This document shows, piece after piece, positions 19,621 to 30,448 of a DNA stretch of 44,734 nucleotides (the stretch's first letter is position 1; every line of letters begins with the position of its first letter). Position numbers and translations under genes: made by a program. The stretch is from an uncultured Spirochaetaceae bacterium (GTDB lineage Bacteria; Spirochaetota; Spirochaetia; Sphaerochaetales; Sphaerochaetaceae), in assembly GCA_944389145.1 (NCBI GenBank), contig CALXLH010000029.1, positions 1 to 44,734 of the forward strand. Reading direction: 5' to 3'. The notes beneath the pieces are model-generated. The model ran no database searches. It was not told the DNA's origin and saw nothing but the letters and a program-made list of their open reading frames with translations.

Positions 19621-19925
19621 TCAGAGACGGGAAGTTCATCTTCCACTATCATGGGCCTGTCGTGGCGCAGCCTGATATGATGGCGCCGGGCCCACTCGAT
19701 ATAAGCACATGATGGCGGCAGGGACGTGCCGATGATCGCTGTCAGCGGAGTTACCTTCGTACATTCGGAACAGATATCGAAACGCTCATCGTAGACAGTG
19801 CAGAGCCGTGTCCCGGCATCAAGGAAGGAACATGGAGAAGAAAGGTCAACGACAACCTGATCAGGATAGATAGTACGGGAGAAGCAGCAGAGACCGCAGC
19901 GTCTGCAGATACTCTCCCAGCTCAT
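19617..19925 (-). CDS. YkgJ-like cysteine-cluster protein
   Basis: Small protein of the zinc/iron-chelating (YkgJ/YcgN-like CxxCxxCC) family, 102 residues. The N-terminal motif CRRCGLCC is at residues 7-14, with further cysteines at CSF, LCTVY, CSEC and SCAY, which together could bind a metal ion. Biochemical function is unknown for the family. Its start overlaps the surE stop as ATGA, so it is the last gene of the galactokinase-like/surE operon. Confidence 0.8.
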   Translation of the reverse strand: MSWESICRRCGLCCFSRTIYPDQVVVDLSSPCSFLDAGTRLCTVYDERFDICSECTKVTPLTAIIGTSLPPSCAYIEWARRHHIRLRHDRPMIVEDELPVSD

Positions 19926-20659
19926 ATCTCAAGCCCTGCCATCGCAGGAGAATAATGGGGAAGCACATCGACGAGGGTAACGGCTGCACGTCCTGACTGG
20001 CATATCTCGAAATCAGCCCGGTAAGGCCCCTCCGCCCCCTGGCGGTTGAAGCCGCAACCCCTGATCTCAAGCTCCTTTACCATGCCATCGTCAGAGACAA
20101 CCACCACATCATCCTCATAATGCACGAAGCCTATGCCACCCTTCTCCGCCTCTCCTGTAAAAGAGGAGGGAACGTTGATATTCATGAATGTCATCGGAGG
20201 AATCTGAGAGGAAAGCCTCTCAAGGTTATCAAGAAGATAACGCGCCGCAGCGTCGAACGTATCGAGCCCACAGCCATCCTCGGCAGAGATCGCAATAGCC
20301 TTCATGCCATAGATGGCAGCCTGACGCGCAGCGGCACAGGTGCCGGAGTATATGATATCCGCAGAGAGGTTATATCCCCTGTTTATGCCGGAGACTACAA
20401 GGTCTGGGACCGAAGGGAAAAGCGAACAGCGATGGCTGTAGATGATGCAATCAGCAGGAGTACCTGAGACATGGAAGCGTCTCGGACCATGTTCCGTGAT
20501 CCTCACGCGCCCCCGTATCGTCATCGAATGGGACTTGCCGCTCTGCTCGCTGTCCGGAGCCGCGACAGTCACCTCATGACCTGCGGAGGAGAGCACATCA
20601 TCAAGGACCTTTATCCCGATGGCGTCGAAGCCATCATCATTAGAGAGAAGGATCTTCAT
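19922..20659 (-). CDS. surE: 5'/3'-nucleotidase SurE
   Basis: Metal-dependent survival protein SurE, which dephosphorylates nucleoside monophosphates. At 245 residues it is typical. The N-terminal NDDG at residues 7-10 supplies the metal-binding aspartates; SEQSGKSHSMT near 38 holds the conserved serine; VSGINRGYN near 90 holds the asparagine ligand; GTCAAARQAA follows. It overlaps the galactokinase-like gene by 20 bases at its start and the YkgJ-like gene by four at its end. Confidence 0.93.
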   Translation of the reverse strand: MKILLSNDDGFDAIGIKVLDDVLSSAGHEVTVAAPDSEQSGKSHSMTIRGRVRITEHGPRRFHVSGTPADCIIYSHRCSLFPSVPDLVVSGINRGYNLSADIIYSGTCAAARQAAIYGMKAIAISAEDGCGLDTFDAAARYLLDNLERLSSQIPPMTFMNINVPSSFTGEAEKGGIGFVHYEDDVVVVSDDGMVKELEIRGCGFNRQGAEGPYRADFEICQSGRAAVTLVDVLPHYSPAMAGLEI

Positions 20660-21818
20660 CCAGCCTTACCAACCTTATACCGCGTGAAGGCACATACTCC
20701 CTCATGATAGGATGGAATCCGAATATCCTCTCGTATTCCTCCAGCTGTGCCCTATACTGTTCTACAGCCCCGTTTTCTATCAATGCCACAAGCGTCCCGG
20801 ATATCCCCACGGATATCTCAGTTATCCCCTTCACGCCAGAGGCCTCGAAGCCGCGCTTGACCAGCCAATCCACCTCCGGAGACGTAAGATCGGCAAGCTC
20901 TGAGAGATTGCGCTGCTCTGCTGCCATGATCTTGCCGAACGCCGTGGCATCTCCGTTCCTTATCGCATCAAGTCCCTTCCTGGCGAAGGCAGAATCCTCT
21001 GCAACGAAGCTGAGCGCCCTCTTCAGATCCTCAGGAAGAGGAAGATGCAGATGGCGGATACCCCACTCCGAGAGCGAACGGAGCTTCTCGCCTATCGGCA
21101 GGGATGGCGCAGCCATCTTCACGGCCTTGACGCAGTTCTCACGGAAGATGTCGACCTCCCCTGAAAGCTCATCCTCAGGAAGGGAGCAGTCTATGAAATA
21201 TGAACCTATGCCATTCTCCGCCACGAACGGATAATCATATGAGCTGTAATCATAGCTCTCAAGATCGAAGAATATGACCTTGCCTGGCTCAGAGGTAAAG
21301 AGCGTCACGAGATCGCGCAGCCTTGAGCCATACCGTGTCATGAATCGATTTACGCTGAAGCCGAGCCTCATCATAGCATTTGCGTCAAGAGAAAGCGAAT
21401 AAAGCGAATTAAGGCCATATACCATGCCTGACACGATGGCTGCGGCGATCGAAGGAGCATCGGCGACTGCGCTCTGCCCCTTGAATGTCATATCGAATCC
21501 CTTGATATCGAGCTCTGCCGACAGCATGGCCTGGCACACCGCCTTGACGATGGAGGCCCACTTGTCCTCCTTGCGCTCCTTCAAGGCAGAAAGCTGGAAC
21601 TTCTTGCGCTCTCCACGCGTGGCATTGAAGACTCTTACGGCATTATCATCACGCCGTGTCAGCGCGACCCTGAGACCGTGGCTGTTCGTGCTGGTAAGGG
21701 AGAATCCCTTGCAATACTCTGCGAATGCACCTAGAAGCGTTGTTACCTGAGGAACCTCTACCTGTACATCCGGCTCCACGCCATATTCACCCTGATGCGC
21801 CTTTGCTGTGCCTTCCAT
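20640..21818 (-). CDS. degenerate galactokinase-like (GHMP) protein
   Basis: The 392 residues align by eye with galactokinase from end to end, but the catalytic motifs have decayed. The signature usually reading GEHTDYNxG is GAFAEYCKG (residues 30-38). The ATP loop, usually P-x-GxGLSSS, is GQSAVADAPSIAAA (114-127) and lacks both the glycines and the serines. The third GHMP motif near the end is reduced to SVGISGTLVALI. It is probably a pseudo-kinase with a sensing or scaffolding role, unless it has a new chemistry. It is the first gene of an operon with surE and the YkgJ-like protein, with a promoter at 21838-21867. Confidence 0.7.
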   Translation of the reverse strand: MEGTAKAHQGEYGVEPDVQVEVPQVTTLLGAFAEYCKGFSLTSTNSHGLRVALTRRDDNAVRVFNATRGERKKFQLSALKERKEDKWASIVKAVCQAMLSAELDIKGFDMTFKGQSAVADAPSIAAAIVSGMVYGLNSLYSLSLDANAMMRLGFSVNRFMTRYGSRLRDLVTLFTSEPGKVIFFDLESYDYSSYDYPFVAENGIGSYFIDCSLPEDELSGEVDIFRENCVKAVKMAAPSLPIGEKLRSLSEWGIRHLHLPLPEDLKRALSFVAEDSAFARKGLDAIRNGDATAFGKIMAAEQRNLSELADLTSPEVDWLVKRGFEASGVKGITEISVGISGTLVALIENGAVEQYRAQLEEYERIFGFHPIMREYVPSRGIRLVRLDEDPSL

Positions 21819-21911: not shown

Positions 21912-22571
21912 TCAATGCTCATCACAGGATTCAATCACATAATCCTCGATATTAAGCTCTCCAATGGCTGAGCAATGCCTCCGGCAGGCAGCCTCCGCCA
22001 TCGCCGCGTTCCGCGTAGCCAAAGCCTCTACCCACAGCCTATGCTCCTCATATGACTCGGCCTTTCGCCATTTCTTGCTTCCATAGCGTGCTGATATGAT
22101 ACTCATGCTTTCCCACAAGGATTCTATATACTCAGCAAGAGTCTTATTCGGATTCATTCCTGCCACTGTCAGATGGAACTCTCCATTCCAGTCATAATAG
22201 CTGTGAATGTCCTCATCACTGACAGCTCTCTTGCCCCTCTCCATAAGCTCATTCAAACGTTCAACCTGCTCATCTGTTATAATCGGAGCAAGCAATCTTG
22301 TAGCTACAGATTCAAGTTCGCTTCTTATCTGATGCAATTCCTTTAGCTTGTCATGATTATAGGTAATGACACGAGCACCAACATGAGGGATCAATTCTAC
22401 GAACTTCTCCTGCGCAAGTCTGATCAGCGCTTCTCGAACAGGCATCGGAGATACCTCAATCTCCTTTGCCAGATCGGCAACGACCAAACGATCGTCAGCT
22501 TTGACACGGCCGCTAAGAAGCATCTTCTTTATCGCCTCGTAGGCATAATCTGCTTTAGTAAGGTAGTTCAT
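21912..22571 (-). CDS. GntR-family regulator, FCD (FadR-like) subgroup
   Basis: Transcription factor of 219 residues: an N-terminal winged helix (VADLAKEIEVSPMPVREALIRLAQEKFVE...) and an all-helical FCD ligand domain with the metal/ligand pattern D-WNGEFHLTVAG, then EEHRLWVEALATRN and a late C-terminal RRHCSAIG. FCD regulators typically sense small organic acids. The start at 22571 is chosen because AGGAAGGAGG lies directly upstream; a start 36 bases earlier has none. It is divergent from the TRAP operon and is its likely local repressor. Confidence 0.88.
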   Translation of the reverse strand: MNYLTKADYAYEAIKKMLLSGRVKADDRLVVADLAKEIEVSPMPVREALIRLAQEKFVELIPHVGARVITYNHDKLKELHQIRSELESVATRLLAPIITDEQVERLNELMERGKRAVSDEDIHSYYDWNGEFHLTVAGMNPNKTLAEYIESLWESMSIISARYGSKKWRKAESYEEHRLWVEALATRNAAMAEAACRRHCSAIGELNIEDYVIESCDEH

Positions 22572-22638
22572 AGCCTCCTTCCTCTGAATATAAGATGGTA
22601 AAACCAACCCCCAAGGTCAAGATTTTATCAAATCATAT

Positions 22639-22652
22639 ATCTTATATAAGAT
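22639..22652. promoter_or_regulatory. 14-bp perfect palindrome near the gntR promoter
   Basis: ATCTTATATAAGAT reads the same on both strands. It lies in the 300-base divergent region 22572-22873, about 70 bases ahead of the regulator's start codon, where an autoregulatory site is expected. The half-site ATCCTAA (22660-22666) of the TRAP repeat lies just beside it. Confidence 0.4.
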
Positions 22653-22831: not shown

Positions 22832-22860
22832 TTAGGATTTTATCAAATATCAAATCCTAA
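22832..22860. promoter_or_regulatory. candidate operator at the TRAP operon start site
   Basis: TTAGGATTT (22832-22840) and AAATCCTAA (22852-22860) are perfect inverted arms around an 11-base spacer. The repeat begins at the predicted start site and ends one base before the AAGGAGG ribosome site, so a bound repressor, or a hairpin in the RNA, would block expression. Confidence 0.6.
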
Positions 22861-22873
22861 AAGGAGGTTAGGC

Positions 22874-23980
22874 ATGAGAAAGGCGTTATTAATCCTTCTG
22901 GCCGTGATGATGGTACTAGTCACGACATCATGCACGAAGGATGCCGAGGATGAAGGAAGCACTGCATCCACTACGGCAGCGGTATCAAACGTCGATTACT
23001 CAAAGGAAAACTGGTGGGATGATGCGGAATGGACAGAGGATTTCCACCTGACATTCGCAACAACCGCTAACCCAGGCTCGGGAAGCGGCATCGCCACGGC
23101 AAAGGCCATCGAACTGATAAAGGAAAGATCGGATGGCCACCTTGTGATCGAGCAGGTATTCAACGGCGCATTAGGAAACGAGTCCAGCACATTCGCCCAG
23201 TGCATGGAAGGATCAGTGGACATGACAGGAGCATCGGTGGGCACCGTATCGATGTATGTCCCACATCTTGAGGTATTCACGCTGCCATTCCTCATTGATT
23301 CCTACGAGCACGAATGGGCAGTGATGCAGTCGGATGAATGGAAGGCAATCAGGCAGAGGACAAGCGATGAGCTGGAAGGTGTCACGATCGTATCGATGAC
23401 AGAATTCGGCATGAGGGGATTCGGTACTGTGGACAAGCCAATCACGAAGCTTGAGGATATCAAGGGAATGAAGATCAGGACGGCAGGCAATCCTACCATC
23501 GACCATGCCCTGCAGCTCGTCGGAGCGAATCCTGTGAGTGTTGCATATACTGATACCTACACAGCCCTTCAGAACAAGGTCGTAGATGGAGAGGAAATAA
23601 ATGCAACGTCCATCTCGATGCAGAAGCATTATGAAATAGTGAAGTACTTCACCGAGATCGGGTTCTATCCCTACCTCTCCTTTGCACTCATATCGAACGC
23701 AACCCTCGACAGGATGCCTGAGCATTATGGACGTCTGATCATGGATACGTTCGCAGAGACAGATGAGTATTACATGACCGAAGTCATCTATGACTGGGAT
23801 TCAAGCTGCACAGAGGACTGCCTTGCGAACGGTATGGAGTTCGTGACGGTAGAGGATAGGGATGCCTGGGTCGAGGCGATGGCTCCGCTCTATGAGGAGA
23901 CTGCGGCACAGGATCCCATGTATGCGGCCTTCATAGATAAGGCGCTGGAGCTCAGGAACAATAGTACGGAGGCGCAATGA
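22874..23980 (+). CDS. dctP: TRAP transporter substrate-binding lipoprotein DctP
   Basis: Extracytoplasmic receptor of a TRAP transporter, 368 residues. It has a lipoprotein leader with lipobox TTSC (cysteine near residue 20). The DctP ligand region is clear: KIRTAGNPTIDHALQLVGANPV, with the arginine that usually binds the substrate carboxylate, followed by TALQNKVVDGEEI. The start is ATG 22874, six bases after AAGGAGG (22861-22867); a longer open frame upstream has no ribosome site and would bury the leader. It is the first gene of a seven-gene operon. Confidence 0.93.
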   Translation: MRKALLILLAVMMVLVTTSCTKDAEDEGSTASTTAAVSNVDYSKENWWDDAEWTEDFHLTFATTANPGSGSGIATAKAIELIKERSDGHLVIEQVFNGALGNESSTFAQCMEGSVDMTGASVGTVSMYVPHLEVFTLPFLIDSYEHEWAVMQSDEWKAIRQRTSDELEGVTIVSMTEFGMRGFGTVDKPITKLEDIKGMKIRTAGNPTIDHALQLVGANPVSVAYTDTYTALQNKVVDGEEINATSISMQKHYEIVKYFTEIGFYPYLSFALISNATLDRMPEHYGRLIMDTFAETDEYYMTEVIYDWDSSCTEDCLANGMEFVTVEDRDAWVEAMAPLYEETAAQDPMYAAFIDKALELRNNSTEAQ

Positions 23981-24492
23981 TAAAAGGCTTTCACAGATTC
24001 GCGATTATCTGCAAGAAGGTAATCTCATGGATCGCAGTCGCTACCGTAGCTGCGATGCTTGTGATCATGTGCATCGAAGTAGTACGCAGATATCTTTTCG
24101 GGAAGACATTCATATGGTCAGATGAGATCATAAGGATACTGCTGGTATTCTGTGCCTATTTCGGAGGAGCTACAGGCTACTTCGATCACAACCTCACGTC
24201 ATTTGATATGGTGATAACAAGGCTGAGCAAGAGAACCAACGATATCCTTAAGCTTATAGTCAACGTTGTCATGCTGGTGTTCTTCATCATCCTGCTATAT
24301 CTGACATACAAGAAGATCATCTCTCCATCGGTAGCGAACAGCGTAAGCACGTCGACAGGACTTTCGGGAGCATTCCCCTACTACGGGATATTCACCGGCC
24401 TGATATTCATGACGATCTTCACCATCGACTTCTTTCCCGGTCTCATATCGGCAGTAGTCCATGGCAAGGAAGAGCAGAAGGAGGCATCCTGA
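23977..24492 (+). CDS. dctQ: TRAP transporter small permease DctQ
   Basis: Four-helix membrane subunit of the TRAP transporter, 171 residues. The conserved segment EVVRRYLFGKTFIWSDEIIRILLVFCAYFGG (residues 30-60) is the DctQ hallmark. Its ATG overlaps the dctP stop as ATGA, and its TGA shares a base with the dctM ATG. Confidence 0.92.
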   Translation: MIKGFHRFAIICKKVISWIAVATVAAMLVIMCIEVVRRYLFGKTFIWSDEIIRILLVFCAYFGGATGYFDHNLTSFDMVITRLSKRTNDILKLIVNVVMLVFFIILLYLTYKKIISPSVANSVSTSTGLSGAFPYYGIFTGLIFMTIFTIDFFPGLISAVVHGKEEQKEAS

Positions 24493-25778
24493 TGTTAATA
24501 GCAGCTATTGCATTCGTGGTACTCCTGATCATCGGCGTACCAATCGCATTCGTACTTGGGATAATGGGATCGATCCACACGATGAGCCTGGGAAATCCAG
24601 CATTCAACCTTGTGATAATCCAGCGCCTCTTCGATCAGATCAACAATACGTCGCTGACATGCCTGCCGTTCTTCATACTCGCAGGAGAGATAATGAACGC
24701 AGGCGGCGTGACGAAGAGACTGCTTGGGTTCATTAGGGAGCTCATAGGCTGGCTGAAAGGTGGAATGGCTTATGCTACCGTCATCATCTCAGCGATCCTG
24801 TCCTCGATACTGGGAAGCCCGAACGCCGTATGCTCGATGCTCTGCGGCGTGCTTGTCCCTGAGCTCAGGAATGATGGATATGACGATGAGTTCACAGGTT
24901 CTCTCGTAGCAGCCTCATCCATCCTTGGACCGATCATCCCGCCAAGCACATCATTCATCATGTACTGCATGCTTACGAATACATCGATCAAGGCGATGTT
25001 CGTAGCGGGAATACTTCCAGGCATACTCCTTGCGCTCATGTTCTGCGTCCTGATAGCATTCTATGCCCGTAAGCGCGGATACAAGAAGAGCGTGGATCGT
25101 GCGAACCTCGGAAGGCTGGGAAGGAACTTCATCACAGCACTGCCGGCCCTTTTGGTACCCGGTGTGATCATGGGAGGAGTCATTGGAGGATTCTTCACCG
25201 CGACCGAATCGGGAGCTGTCTCCTGCGTATGTGCGATCATAGCATCGATCATATACCATGAGATGGACTGGAAGGCCATGCCTAAGGTATTGCTGAAGTC
25301 TGCCGTAGTCGGCGGAGGAATACTCCTGATGATATCATTCGGAGGAGTCATCGCATGGAGCATGACAAGAAGCGGAATCCCTGCCCAGCTCACAGCAGCC
25401 ATCACATCGATTACGGAAAGCCGCGCGCTCATAACGCTGATCATACTGATCATACTCATGATAGGCGGATGCCTTCTCGATAACGGAACGATGGCAATGG
25501 TATTCAACCCAGTGCTATTCCCGCTCGGCATGGCCATAGGCTTCGACCCGGTGCATTTCGGAATCATGTTCTCATGCATGCTTACGATCGGATACATCAC
25601 GCCGCCTGTAGGCGTAGTACTGTTCGTCACGTCCAACATCGCAGGCATTCCGTTCCGTAAGCTGTGCAAGCAGATCTGGCCATTCGCCATCGGGGCCATC
25701 CTGGTCATATCAGTACTGTCATTCCTGCCCGAGGATATCGTTCTCTGGCTACCAAGACTCACAGGCTATTCAGGCTAA
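24492..25778 (+). CDS. dctM: TRAP transporter large permease DctM
   Basis: Large channel-forming subunit of the TRAP transporter, 428 residues with about twelve hydrophobic segments. Typical features are PFFILAGEIMNAGG near residue 58, SSILGSPNAVCSMLCGVLVPEL near 100, GPIIPPSTSFIMYC near 140 and GYITPPVGVVLFV near the C-terminus. It is translationally coupled to dctQ by a one-base overlap. Confidence 0.93.
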   Translation: MLIAAIAFVVLLIIGVPIAFVLGIMGSIHTMSLGNPAFNLVIIQRLFDQINNTSLTCLPFFILAGEIMNAGGVTKRLLGFIRELIGWLKGGMAYATVIISAILSSILGSPNAVCSMLCGVLVPELRNDGYDDEFTGSLVAASSILGPIIPPSTSFIMYCMLTNTSIKAMFVAGILPGILLALMFCVLIAFYARKRGYKKSVDRANLGRLGRNFITALPALLVPGVIMGGVIGGFFTATESGAVSCVCAIIASIIYHEMDWKAMPKVLLKSAVVGGGILLMISFGGVIAWSMTRSGIPAQLTAAITSITESRALITLIILIILMIGGCLLDNGTMAMVFNPVLFPLGMAIGFDPVHFGIMFSCMLTIGYITPPVGVVLFVTSNIAGIPFRKLCKQIWPFAIGAILVISVLSFLPEDIVLWLPRLTGYSG

Positions 25779-25793
25779 CAAATAGGAGGAAAT

Positions 25794-26174
25794 ATGGAAA
25801 TACTTGAAAATGGAGTAATCATCGGAAACTACAACAAGGAGAAATGGACCGTCGTAAAGCCCGGAATCGAGAAATTCGAGGTCAGCGGAGGAAACCTCAC
25901 CCTTTGCTTCATGAGGATGCATCCTGAGAAGTGCGGAATGTACGCGCCTACCCCATCTGGCCACAGGCATAAGGACGTGGAACAGCTCACGATAATGCTC
26001 GAAGGCCATGCAACGGTCATAATGGATGGAAAGAGATTCCCCGTGAGGAAGGGCAGCCACTGGTATGCGGCACCCGGCATCGATCATGGACTTGACCTGA
26101 GAGAGTCACCGGAAGGAGTGACAATACTGCAGATATTCCCCTCCCCGACCCATCCAGAGCTCATAACGGTATAA
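25794..26174 (+). CDS. cupin-domain protein (first of two)
   Basis: Single-domain cupin, 126 residues, cytosolic. Cupin motif 1 is present with metal ligands in GHRHKDVEQ (residues 60-68) and motif 2 in PGIDHGLDL near residue 96. Such proteins bind a metal and a small acid or sugar acid as isomerase, dioxygenase or sensor; the activity here cannot be told. AGGAGGA lies directly before the ATG, 15 bases after dctM. Confidence 0.85.
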   Translation: MEILENGVIIGNYNKEKWTVVKPGIEKFEVSGGNLTLCFMRMHPEKCGMYAPTPSGHRHKDVEQLTIMLEGHATVIMDGKRFPVRKGSHWYAAPGIDHGLDLRESPEGVTILQIFPSPTHPELITV

Positions 26175-26184
26175 GGAGACTGCC

Positions 26185-26955
26185 GTGACTAACAATGCGA
26201 TGGTGAGGAAGCTGAAGGCAGGGAAGCCTGTATTCGGAACATTCGTCAAAGTCAATGAACCACGTCTCATAGAATGCTTCGGACATGCCGGATTCGATTA
26301 TGTGATATTCGATGCAGAGCATGGTACGTACACCTTCCATGAGCTGGAAAACATGATCAGGGCTGCTGATATATCTGGCATGAGCAGCGTTGTCAGGGTT
26401 CCAGACTGTACCGAGTATTCCGTGCTGCATGCGCTTGATGTAGGAGCAGGAGCAGTACAGATTCCTAGCCTAAGGGATGCAGAGGTTGCCGGCTATGGAG
26501 CATCGTTCTCGAAATACTATCCGCTTGGAAGGCGGGGCATGTGTACAGATCAGAGGGCGAACGATTATGGATTCGGCAGCAATAAGGAGTACTTCAGCTA
26601 TGCCAATGAGAACACTCTATTCATAGCCCAGGTCGAGACAGTGGAGATGGTAGACCATATAGAGGAGCTTTGCAGCATAGACAGGGTCGATGCGCTCTTC
26701 ATCGGCCCAGGCGATCTCTCGCAGGCGATGGGGCATCCCGGAGAGGTAAGGTGCAAGGAAGTGATGGATGCGATAAAGCATGTGACGAGAGTCGGGTTGG
26801 AACACAAGAAGATTGTAGGAACGATCGTGTTCAATCCAGATGAGTTCGCCAAATTCATCGAGATGGGAATGCTGTACATGTCGATTTCCACCGACATGTC
26901 GATATTCAAGAAAGCGCTGAAGGATATAGCCACATCCTTCGACAAGTACCGCTGA
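26185..26955 (+). CDS. HpcH/HpaI-type class II aldolase
   Basis: Metal-dependent aldolase of the HpcH/HpaI family, 256 residues, which cleaves hydroxy-keto acids to pyruvate and an aldehyde (or runs in reverse). The active-site residues are in place: DAEH (43-46) with the catalytic histidine, Arg71 in VVRVP, and metal ligands Glu151 (QVETVE) and Asp177 (GPGDLS). The start is GTG 26185, with AAGGAG upstream. Standing between two cupins in a TRAP operon, it probably performs the carbon-carbon cleavage step for the imported acid. Confidence 0.88.
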   Translation: MTNNAMVRKLKAGKPVFGTFVKVNEPRLIECFGHAGFDYVIFDAEHGTYTFHELENMIRAADISGMSSVVRVPDCTEYSVLHALDVGAGAVQIPSLRDAEVAGYGASFSKYYPLGRRGMCTDQRANDYGFGSNKEYFSYANENTLFIAQVETVEMVDHIEELCSIDRVDALFIGPGDLSQAMGHPGEVRCKEVMDAIKHVTRVGLEHKKIVGTIVFNPDEFAKFIEMGMLYMSISTDMSIFKKALKDIATSFDKYR

Positions 26956-26972
26956 TATCAAAGGAGGAAAGG

Positions 26973-27425
26973 ATGTCAAAGAAAGGTATAAATCAGATAG
27001 TCGTAGGCAATTTCTATAATTCAGAGGAGTACTACTGCCCCAATCCTGAAAAGAAATTCGGGACCATGAGGTACTTCTTCACAGGGGACAACTGCTCAGT
27101 AGCATTGCATATGATACCAGCAGGAGCACCGCAGGCTCCAGAGCATCATCATGTACATGAGCAGTTTCTGCTCGTACCGCAGGGAGACGGAAAGGCAATC
27201 GTCGATGGCGTCGAATACGATTCAGAACCCGGCTTCTTCGCCTATTGCCCGTCAGGAGTACCTCATGGATACAATGCATCCGAGGCGACGTACTGCTGCT
27301 GGAACCTCGATATCTTCTATCCTGAGAGGCTGGAGTATGAGAAGGATAACTATTTCCGCCTGCTCGCTCAGGGCAAGAAACCGATGGAAACGCAGATCAC
27401 GAAGGATACCGTGGAATTCGTATAA
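26973..27425 (+). CDS. cupin-domain protein (second of two)
   Basis: Single-domain cupin, 150 residues, not closely similar to the first one. Motif 1 has the metal ligands in EHHHVHEQFLLVPQG (near residues 48-62) and motif 2 in CPSGVPHGY near 93. The histidine cluster suggests a bound Fe, Mn or Zn ion. An AAGGAGG site precedes the ATG. It may act on the product of the aldolase or on the substrate before cleavage. Confidence 0.85.
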   Translation: MSKKGINQIVVGNFYNSEEYYCPNPEKKFGTMRYFFTGDNCSVALHMIPAGAPQAPEHHHVHEQFLLVPQGDGKAIVDGVEYDSEPGFFAYCPSGVPHGYNASEATYCCWNLDIFYPERLEYEKDNYFRLLAQGKKPMETQITKDTVEFV

Positions 27426-27434
27426 GGAGGCAGC

Positions 27435-28328
27435 ATGAGGGATCTTCTTGAAGGATATGTGGACATACATGTCCATAATGGTCCGTCCAATGTCCAGAGG
27501 CTCTTCAATACAGGAGAGTTCGCGATAGAGGCAGACAAGGTTGGCTGCAGGGCGTTCATCACGAAGGATCACTACTTCCCATCGATGATGACCGCAATAC
27601 AGTCGAATTCCCTCCTGGAGGGAAAGGTCAGCACAAAGGCCTATGGAAGCATCATACTCAACAACAGCGTGGGAGGGATAAACCTCAAGGCCGTTGATGC
27701 CGCAGTTGCCCTAGGAGCGAAATATGTGTCGCTTCCGACGATATCGGCAGCGAACCATATCCGCTACTATGAAGGACGGCAGTTCATCGGAGCCAAGGGA
27801 ATGCTCGTAGACGAGACACCTATCCATGAGCTGGATGAGAACGGGAATCTGACACAGGAAGTGGAGGATCTTCTGCAGTTCATATCCAAGCTGGAGAAAC
27901 CGCCTATCCTAGCGACAGGCCATGGCTCCAGGGAGGAACAGGATGCAGTGGTAAGGAGAGGCCGCGAGCTTGGAGTACCCATACTCGTGAACCATCCTTA
28001 TTACGGATTCGAGGTACATGCCGAGGATATAATCCGGTGGGCTGGGCTTGGAGCATATATAGAGCTGACAGCCATATCGTTCCTGCCGGGTAAGAAGACC
28101 GCGGCTGATTTCGTAGGCAATCACGACTTCCTTCAGAAGCTCTTCAGCAATATACCGGTAGAGCAGTTCGTCGTCGATTCGGATATGGGGCAGAAGATCT
28201 TCGAATCCCCCGTAAACGGCGTCTATACGTTCCTGAAGATCCTCATGGATGAATACGGGTTCAGCAAGGATGAGATAGATACGATGGCGAAAAGAACGCC
28301 AGCAAAGCTGATGCATCTTGACGACTGA
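27435..28328 (+). CDS. DUF6282 / amidohydrolase-like protein
   Basis: TIM-barrel hydrolase-like protein, 297 residues, that I place in DUF6282. The N-terminal YVDIHVHNGPS (residues 8-18) carries the H-x-H metal pair of the amidohydrolase superfamily, and FITKDHY, ILATGHGS and LVNHPYYG hold further histidines. No reaction is established for this family as far as I know. It ends the seven-gene operon, nine bases after the second cupin and before a strong bidirectional terminator. Confidence 0.75.
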   Translation: MRDLLEGYVDIHVHNGPSNVQRLFNTGEFAIEADKVGCRAFITKDHYFPSMMTAIQSNSLLEGKVSTKAYGSIILNNSVGGINLKAVDAAVALGAKYVSLPTISAANHIRYYEGRQFIGAKGMLVDETPIHELDENGNLTQEVEDLLQFISKLEKPPILATGHGSREEQDAVVRRGRELGVPILVNHPYYGFEVHAEDIIRWAGLGAYIELTAISFLPGKKTAADFVGNHDFLQKLFSNIPVEQFVVDSDMGQKIFESPVNGVYTFLKILMDEYGFSKDEIDTMAKRTPAKLMHLDD

Positions 28329-28349
28329 CTTGGATCAAGCATGAAAGAC

Positions 28350-28377
28350 GAAGCCGGGCGAATCAAAGCCCGGCTTC
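28350..28377. terminator. bidirectional terminator between DUF6282 and rpmE
   Basis: GAAGCCGGGC (28350-28359) and GCCCGGCTTC (28368-28377) are perfect 10-bp arms with an 8-base loop. Pyrimidine-rich tails lie on both sides, and the hairpin lies between convergent genes. Confidence 0.75.
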
Positions 28378-28398
28378 CTCTCTCTGGATATCGAACAC

Positions 28399-28605
28399 TC
28401 AGTTCGTAGTCCTGTTGTACCTCTTGTTGAAGCGCTCGACACGTCCAGTGGTATCGACAAGCTTCTGCGTACCCGTGAAGAACGGATGGCACGCAGAGCA
28501 GATCTCAACGTGAAGGTTCTTCGACGTGGACTTCGTCTTTATCACATTGCCGCATGAGCAATGGATCTCCTGCAAGGTGTACTCAGGATGGATGTCTTTC
28601 TTCAT
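28399..28605 (-). CDS. rpmE: 50S ribosomal protein L31
   Basis: Ribosomal protein L31, 68 residues, zinc-binding (C+) form: Cys16, Cys18, Cys36 and Cys39 in HCSCG and EICSACHPF. The C-terminal VERFNKRY is typical. It lies 52 bases after rho. GGAGG precedes the ATG. Confidence 0.95.
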
Positions 28606-28657: not shown

Positions 28658-30448
28658 TCATGCCATCCTCGCCGGTGTATTCATCGAGTCGAGGAACTCC
28701 TTATTGTTGTTTGTTTTCCGCATCTTGTCAATTATGCTCACGGACATATCCATATCATCGAGATTGCCGAATGCCGTACGCAGCAGATAGACACGAGACC
28801 TCACATCCTCAGCGAGAAGAAGATCATCGCGCCTCGTACCCGACTTCTTGATGTTTATGGCCGGGAAGCGGCGGTTATCGGCCATCTTCCTGTCAAGGAC
28901 GATCTCATTGTTTCCAGTGCCCTTGAACTCCTCAAAGATAACCTCATCCATCCTGGATCCGGTCTCGATGAGCGCTGTCGAGATGATCGTCAGCGATCCT
29001 CCCTCCTCGATATTCCTGGCCGCTCCGAAGAACCTCTTTGGCTTATGAAGAGCGTTTGAATCGACGCCTCCGGAGAGGATCTTTCCCGATGCAGGGACTG
29101 TCTGGTTGTACGCGCGGGCAAGGCGGGTGATCGAATCAAGCAGGATGACGACATCCTTCTTATACTCCACGAGCCTCTTGGCCCGCTCTATCACCATCTC
29201 TGCAACCTGCACATGATGCTGGGCCTGCTCATCGAAGGTGCTGGCTATGACCTCTCCCTTTACGTTGCGGGTCATATCAGTGACCTCCTCAGGCCTCTCA
29301 TCGACAAGCAGCACCATCAGTGTGACCTCTGGATGGTTCTCGGTTATCGCATTGGCGATCTTCTGCATCAGCACTGTCTTACCTGTACGAGGAGGAGCAA
29401 CGATGAGCGAACGCTGCCCCTTGCCGATCGGACAGAAGAGATCGACCACGCGGGTGGACAGATCGGAAGGCACGCTGTCATGCACCGTCTCAAGCCTTAG
29501 CCTCTCATCTGGGAAGATCGGGGTGAGGGAATCGAACGGAGCGCGGACCTTCGCCATCCTCGGCTCCTCGTCATTGACCTTCAGGACCCTTATCACGGCA
29601 GCGCTCTTCTCACCTTCCCTTGGAGCCCTTATCTGTCCGAGGATGAAGTCACCGGTCTTAAGGCCTACCGCCTTGATGATCGATGCGGAGATATATACAT
29701 CCTCCGTTCCTGCAAGATAGTTATTCACCGCATATCTCACATAGCCGAAGCTTCCATCCTGAAGGATCTCCAGCACTCCCTCGACGAAGAGAGCGCCGCC
29801 TGACGCCGAATGAAGGCGCAGCATCTTGGCAATCAGATCCTGCTTCCTGCAGTCAAGGATCACATCCTCCGGAATACCTGCCTCTCTTGCGCGGGCTCTC
29901 AGCTGATCAAGCGGAAGAGCCGTAAGAAGGGAGATATAAAGCCGCGGAGCATCTGGATGCTCATCTATGTTCACCTCAGGGGGAAGCTCCTCCATTACCC
30001 TGCGGTTCTTGCCGTTCTTCATCCGCTTATCACGATGCGAACGGAAATCGCGATCACCTCTCTCTCCCTGCTGAGGACGCACATCCGCATCCTCCGCAGC
30101 AGGCTGGGCATCAGCAGGAGTCTCCGCCGGAGCATCCGAGGCAGCGATCTCCTCTGCAGGAGCAGCCATTTCCATGCCCTCTTCGGCAGCAGGAGGTACC
30201 TGAACATCCTCGACGGCCTCAGCCACAGGAATCTCAGTCATCTCAACTGGCTCTGATGTCTCATCATCGCTCTTGCGTACCGTTACCTTGGTCCGCTTAC
30301 GTATCGTTATCTTGCGCTTAGCGCCATCGGCAGAGGCAGCGGCCTTCGGCTTCCTGCCTCTAGGCGACCTCGCCGGCTTCTTCTCCGTGGAATCCGCGAC
30401 AACGTCCTCAGATGGAACGCCATCGGTCTCTTCGATGTAATCTGACAT
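28658..30448 (-). CDS. rho: transcription termination factor Rho
   Basis: Hexameric RNA-dependent ATPase that ends transcription. It has 596 residues against about 420 in E. coli; the excess is an N-terminal region of about 150 residues rich in Ala, Glu, Pro, Lys and Arg ([27 protein letters not shown], then an acidic stretch), probably disordered and RNA-binding. The core follows: Rho N-terminal helices near 175-215, the cold-shock-like domain (GSFGYVRYA near 235), Walker A near residue 350 ([11 protein letters not shown]), Walker [16 protein letters not shown], and the Q-loop/R-loop region near 470. It has its own promoter and is followed by rpmE. Confidence 0.96.

Follow-up and report, generated by a model that had tools for sequence, protein, structure and literature searches.

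The window is a stretch of 44,734 nucleotides from an uncultured Spirochaetaceae bacterium (assembly GCA_944389145.1, contig CALXLH010000029.1), and this analysis concerns a run of seven genes on its plus strand at 22874-28328. The first three encode a complete TRAP transporter, consisting of the substrate-binding lipoprotein DctP (22874..23980; PF03480, E 2.9e-57), the small permease DctQ (23977..24492; PF04290, 4.7e-22) and the large permease DctM (24492..25778; PF06808, 2.6e-95, with TIGR00786 above its cut-off). A lipobox-like TTSC read in the DctP sequence points to secretion. The transporter genes are followed by those for cupin A (25794..26174; 126 residues; PF07883 (Cupin_2), 2.6e-7), an HpcH/HpaI-type class II pyruvate aldolase with a GTG start (26185..26955; PF03328, 2.5e-27), cupin B (26973..27425; 150 residues; PF07883 (Cupin_2), 1.5e-12) and a DUF6282 protein, an amidohydrolase-like metal hydrolase proposed here to open a ring (27435..28328; PF19799, 5e-52). 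A GntR/FCD transcriptional regulator is encoded divergently from dctP on the minus strand (21912..22607; Pfam FCD 5.8e-26, GntR 1e-15); it reached no NCBIfam equivalog cut-off, the best being phnR with 85.5 bits against 271.5. Each of the seven open reading frames (ORFs) is preceded by a Shine-Dalgarno-like sequence. All ORFs, their order and their family matches agreed with a preliminary description of this locus, and its remark that dehydrogenases and kinases are missing also held, as no oxidoreductase or kinase gene was found among the seven Pfam-assigned ORFs.

That description had treated uptake, one or two cupin steps, retro-aldol cleavage and a metal-hydrolase step without redox chemistry as one functional unit. 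Conservation of the gene set was surveyed in Spirochaetota and in plasmid records, where loci within a clade are related to each other. A scan of genome contigs found one full-length relative, locus L007 of Spirochaetales Gx481_bin132, which belongs to another family. It carries the full set in the same order with 45-74% identity (DctP 45%, DctQ 53%, DctM 74%, cupin A 67%, aldolase 69%, cupin B 71% and DUF6282 71%), showing that the cupins and DUF6282 are conserved together with the TRAP genes. Another genus of the same family (L044) has GntR, cupin, DUF6282 and DctMQP genes, with a 2-isopropylmalate/homocitrate-synthase-like protein nearby in place of HpaI. An HpaI-type aldolase is adjacent or close to DUF6282 on plasmids of Roseomonas, Agrobacterium, Leisingera, Paracoccus, Pseudosulfitobacter, Mameliella, Microvirga, Parasedimentitalea, Rhizobium and others. 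Of 11 plasmid records searched in full, 8 place HpaI no more than 5 kb from DUF6282, where 0.35 would be expected (P 5e-11 if the records are independent, a value made optimistic by related records). Cupin, HpaI and DUF6282 thus recur together across phyla, and the conserved set supports a single functional unit. A chance cluster was rejected on the basis of the syntenic copy in L007 and the plasmid linkage. In Rhizobiaceae and Paracoccus, a dihydroorotate-dehydrogenase (DHOD)-like gene, an unusual partner for a catabolic aldolase, stands directly before DUF6282 at loci L065, L069, L074, L083 and L089.

The DUF6282 protein of the window is a clear member of PF19799 (176.9 bits against a gathering cut-off of 26.8). 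Among 29 sequences Asp-10, His-12, His-14, Arg-22, His-163 and Asp-250 are invariant and Lys-44 and His-187 nearly so, and the protein shows the amidohydrolase pattern of HxH, His, His and Asp. Profile comparison gave weak matches to dipeptidase and phosphotriesterase chains and, by hhalign, to LigI-like proteins (E 4.7e-5, probability 68); matches to PPR proteins at E 1e-8 were discarded as a repeat artefact. In the aldolase, Asp-43, His-46, Arg-71, Glu-151 and Asp-177 are invariant across 12 relatives, so the earlier statement that its active site is intact was borne out. With PF03328, the catalytic Arg/His/Asp and the metal Glu/Asp all present, it belongs to the HpcH/HpaI class II pyruvate aldolases, and pyruvate-forming cleavage is well supported as its reaction class; its substrate would be the one proposed below. 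Elsewhere in the source genome (G000), contig C8 carries at 72504-75554 on the minus strand two adjoining ORFs of about 527 and 537 residues with two HpcH/HpaI domains each, so that four tandem-fused aldolase domains follow one another; a DctP gene lies about 10 kb from them.

The metal ligands of cupin A (His-57, His-59, Glu-63/Gln-64 and His-98) and of cupin B (His-58, His-60, Glu-63/Gln-64 and His-98) are invariant in relatives. The two proteins are homologous (hhalign E 1.1e-15), and cupin B carries a C-terminal DIFxPxR signature. Agrobacterium, Rhizobium and 'Roseateles' XES5 have one cupin, located after the aldolase. The same cluster contains a 300-residue 'hypothetical protein' in Paracoccus, Leisingera, Pseudosulfitobacter, Microvirga and Parasedimentitalea; the DUF6282/HpaI-linked loci of this protein in Alphaproteobacteria are L069:9652-10551, L068:3125-4045, L087:5975-6892, L088:8707-9612 and L076:10708-11535. 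Pfam detected no cupin in it. Its C-terminal half can be aligned with the cupins, matching both their metal ligands and the DIFxPxR tail (hhalign E 9.1e-7 against the cupin A set and 8.4e-5 against the cupin B set), and its N-terminal half, as read from the sequence, may be a second cupin.

In the DUF6282 tree the window protein groups with those of L007 and L044 (100/99), beside HpaI-linked Alphaproteobacteria (87/80). The HpaI-linked rows lie on one side, whereas the GalB-linked rows form a single clade apart from them (96/97). In the branch that holds the window protein, HpaI was present at 14 of 16 loci and a cupin at 15; L067 was counted with this branch although it lies outside the tree, its DUF6282 gene being split in the annotation. 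The GalB branch has GalB at all eight loci, an RraA-type CHA aldolase at seven and a cupin at none. The difference in cupin content is significant (Fisher P 1.2e-5), with the loci partly related. The same spirochaete family has another DUF6282 branch (L045-L048 and L053), which is accompanied by a TAXI-TRAP transporter only; the aldolases searched for were not found nearby.

The GalB branch comprises six spirochaete genomes, five from the family of the window and one from another, together with Thermus oshimai and Alicyclobacillus dauci. In all eight loci DUF6282 is accompanied by a PIG-L protein. The two tested, from Thermus and L037, match the 4-oxalomesaconate hydratase 5cgz with E 1.8e-55 and 4.6e-45, with the next PDB match (about 1e-7) some 40 orders of magnitude weaker, and the others are close relatives of these two. 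The RraA-type aldolases of Thermus and L041 score above the cut-off for CHA aldolase; the others scanned match below it. Operons combining DUF6282 with 4-oxalomesaconate hydratase-like and CHA aldolase-like genes occur at L037, L038, L039, L040, L041, L042 and L090 (T. oshimai pTHEOS01). In T. oshimai an extradiol dioxygenase, GntR, DUF6282, GalB, CHA aldolase and an oxidoreductase form one run, near a 4-hydroxybenzoate 3-monooxygenase. The spirochaete operons combine a Tct (tricarboxylate) or TAXI-TRAP transporter with DUF6282, GalB and GalC, the Tct genes occurring in three of the sister operons. Additional genes vary by locus and include a nitroreductase (L042), a DUF1932 oxidoreductase (L041) and TauE (L037). 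The source genome contains no GalB-like gene and has two RraA-like genes elsewhere.

The partner enzymes of the sister branch are thus of types known from the lignin pathway. There the step before the hydratase is carried out by LigI, a ring-opening 2-pyrone-4,6-dicarboxylate hydrolase that is itself an amidohydrolase. By analogy, the gene content of the sister branch suggests that DUF6282 fills the LigI slot in that branch. The sister operons are thus candidates for the use of pyrone dicarboxylates in presumed anaerobes, in which a 2-pyrone-4,6-dicarboxylate-like compound would be taken up, ring-opened, hydrated and cleaved to pyruvate and oxaloacetate without redox chemistry. GalB acts on the enol form of its substrate (PMC9942251), and ring opening of this kind would be expected to yield an enol.

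Transferred to the window, this arrangement leads to the reading we prefer, to which we assign a probability of roughly 0.4: the operon may be a laterally acquired, GntR-controlled catabolic unit for one small carboxylate that is degraded by ring opening. The TRAP system would import the carboxylate, and DUF6282, judged by its partner enzymes, would hydrolyse the ring. The cupins may then tautomerise or hydrate the resulting enol to a 4-hydroxy-2-oxo acid, and the HpaI-type aldolase would cleave this to pyruvate and an oxo acid. Such a route would need neither net redox chemistry nor oxygen. These roles are assigned because the cupins hold the position of GalB and HpaI that of the RraA-type CHA aldolase, and because HpaI, DmpG and the HMG/CHA (RraA-type) aldolases have been presented as cases of convergence among class II pyruvate aldolases (PMC5065237). 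The set of steps in the preliminary description is therefore retained, but not their order, as the sister branch places DUF6282 first and the aldolase last. The hydroxy- or keto-acid substrate it suggested is possible, but the gene neighbourhoods fit a cyclic carboxylic acid better, probably of the pyrone or lactam type. As had been stated before, no described pathway matches within the reach of these searches, and a literature search returned no paper on DUF6282 and none on the combination of TRAP, cupin and HpaI aldolase. As far as these searches reach, the pathway is undescribed, and it would be a variant of the scheme of import, hydrolase, hydratase and pyruvate aldolase.

Several observations weigh against this interpretation. 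The window DUF6282 is about 30% identical to the GalB-linked branch, which makes a transfer of substrate unsafe, and in Roseomonas DUF6282 lies near LigI-like hydrolases, so that it does not simply replace LigI everywhere. Some loci of the HpaI branch add redox enzymes (DHOD-like, quinone oxidoreductase) that are absent from the window operon. The solved chains nearest to DctP (4x8r, 4mnp, 4mmp and 4xfe) include several sialic-acid binders and no known pyrone binder, and we know of no cupin hydratase of the kind proposed. AlphaFold2 models built from two sequences each (window and L007) reached a pLDDT of 45 for DUF6282 and 32 for cupin B; a Foldseek search with the former gave weak TIM-barrel matches only and was given no weight, the model being too poor for fold proof.

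The sialic-acid binders among the DctP relatives, along with glucuronate binders that we take to belong there as well, lead to the question whether the operon serves a uronate-type route instead. TRAP would then import an (unsaturated) uronate, the cupins would take the roles of KdgF and KduI and produce a 2,5-diketo-3-deoxy acid, and the aldolase, which is nearest to GarL, would release pyruvate and a three-carbon ketoaldehyde, with DUF6282 acting on a side lactone or product. Cupin B does resemble KdgF weakly (E 0.03), but quercetinase and other cupins resemble it at least as well: in searches of both cupins KdgF appeared only at E 0.03-0.05, below other cupins, and KduI was not found. This route also leaves DUF6282, the constant partner, idle, and the sister branch of that family accompanies 4-oxalomesaconate rather than uronate enzymes. 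On these grounds we regard it as unlikely.

A nitrogen ring is suggested by the DHOD-like genes directly beside DUF6282 at the five loci given above. DUF6282 would in this case act as a cyclic amidohydrolase on a lactam or N-heterocycle that is already partly reduced, and open its ring; in Alphaproteobacteria the DHOD-like flavoprotein would reduce the ring beforehand, whereas the spirochaete would import the reduced compound. Hydantoinase/oxoprolinase genes near two related cupins agree with this, but the GalB/GalC-linked branch indicates oxygen-ring and 4-oxalomesaconate chemistry and the window operon has no nitrogen-handling gene. We regard this explanation as about as unlikely as the uronate route. 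More doubtful again is a scheme with no ring at all, in which DUF6282 is a hydratase and the cupins are tautomerases or isomerases of a keto acid that is already linear. There is a precedent in LigJ, an amidohydrolase that acts as a 4-oxalomesaconate hydratase, and the coexistence of LigI-like hydrolases with DUF6282 in Roseomonas would fit; at eight loci, however, DUF6282 lies beside a GalB-like hydratase and would be redundant.

If the ring-opening interpretation is correct, anaerobes would be able to use a 2-pyrone-4,6-dicarboxylate-type compound without oxygen. DUF6282, an unannotated family of bacteria and haloarchaea, gains a first testable function in the hydrolysis of 2-pyrone-4,6-dicarboxylate or a related ring, and HpaI aldolases and a cupin subfamily, including the 300-residue protein that Pfam does not recognise, are tied to one conserved pathway. 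A wider proposal, bolder and rather improbable as a whole, is that the DUF6282 proteins are ring-opening hydrolases, so far unrecognised as a family of this kind, heading two convergent pyruvate-forming routes, DUF6282-GalB-GalC and DUF6282-cupin-HpaI. Presumably anaerobic spirochaetes would thereby ferment lignin-derived pyrone carboxylates such as 2-pyrone-4,6-dicarboxylate by means of mobile operons, and the cupins would be a new kind of hydratase. That compound is also being produced for use as a monomer of polymers (PMC10233912).

The seven genes and the regulator gene are inserted into a neighbourhood of a 392-residue gene, rpmE and rho that is otherwise conserved in the genus; 36 congeners lack them there. 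The distance from the 392-residue gene (20640-21818) to rho is 355-1466 bp (median 414) in 36 congeners with both on one contig and 6,845 bp in the source genome. The gene upstream of it at 19922-20659 is presumably surE, and the minus-strand genes downstream of the operon at 28399-28605 and 28658-30448 are taken to be rpmE (ribosomal protein L31) and rho. DUF6282 is patchy, being present in 15 of 139 genomes of the order. A recent foreign base composition was rejected, as the operon has 51% GC and a third-position GC content similar to its flanks; the gain was thus either not recent or from a similar genome. The lateral origin is deduced from the insertion pattern and the patchy distribution, not from composition.

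A 13-mer, GATTTTATCAAAT, is present in exact copies at 22621 and 22836, close to where the divergent genes gntR and dctP start; these are its two occurrences in the window against 0.05 expected with one mismatch allowed. At the first site, which adjoins the gntR start, the 13-mer and a partial repeat form a 24-nucleotide direct repeat of 79% (22621..22644, plus strand). The second (13-mer at 22836-22848) closely precedes the dctP ribosome-binding site and is part of a 12-bp inverted repeat with arms TTAGGATTTTAT and ATCAAATCCTAA, 92% complementary (22832..22860, plus strand). Both are putative regulator sites and likely operators of the divergent genes. The clear promoter reported earlier could not be distinguished from chance, as the 8 promoter-like sites counted compare with 10.0 +/- 3.1 in shuffled sequence. 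The strong terminator proved to be a very stable, GC-rich hairpin of 10 bp that lies between the last operon gene and rpmE (28350-28377; -26.8 kcal/mol for 28340-28390, z -6.6), but its T-run lies on the minus strand only, which fits rpmE on the other side, and CTCTCT follows on the plus strand. Scanning the window for Rfam families, tRNAs and tandem repeats yielded no matches.

Compared with known small metal cupins (KdgF, quercetinase-type, ectoine synthase), the operon cupins share the Cupin_2 motif and the conserved His/His/Gln(Glu)/His, but match none specifically. They form a subfamily of their own with the DIFxPxR tail, which is strongest in cupin B and common to the operon cupins and the C-terminal cupin of the 300-residue alphaproteobacterial protein. 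The aldolase belongs to the same family as HpaI and GarL and has the complete active site, but falls far below the HpaI, GarL and YfaU/RhmA cut-offs and does not lie within a homoprotocatechuate or glucarate operon; an equivalog assignment was rejected for GarL (145.5 against 393 bits), HpaI (135.8 against 368.8) and RhmA (94.2 against 441; NCBIfam cut-offs). Within PF19799, a family without an assigned function, the window branch is distinguished by its partners, cupin and HpaI. The closest comparison is the lower pathway of protocatechuate 4,5-cleavage and gallate (LigI, GalB/LigJ, GalC/LigK). The window operon lacks homologues of LigI, GalB and GalC and has two cupins, an HpaI-type aldolase and a TRAP transporter of its own. 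On the other hand, both would follow the sequence of a hydrolase of amidohydrolase fold, a hydratase and a class II pyruvate aldolase as proposed here, the known route is redox-neutral from 2-pyrone-4,6-dicarboxylate, and homologues of GalB and GalC are physically linked to DUF6282 in its sister branch.

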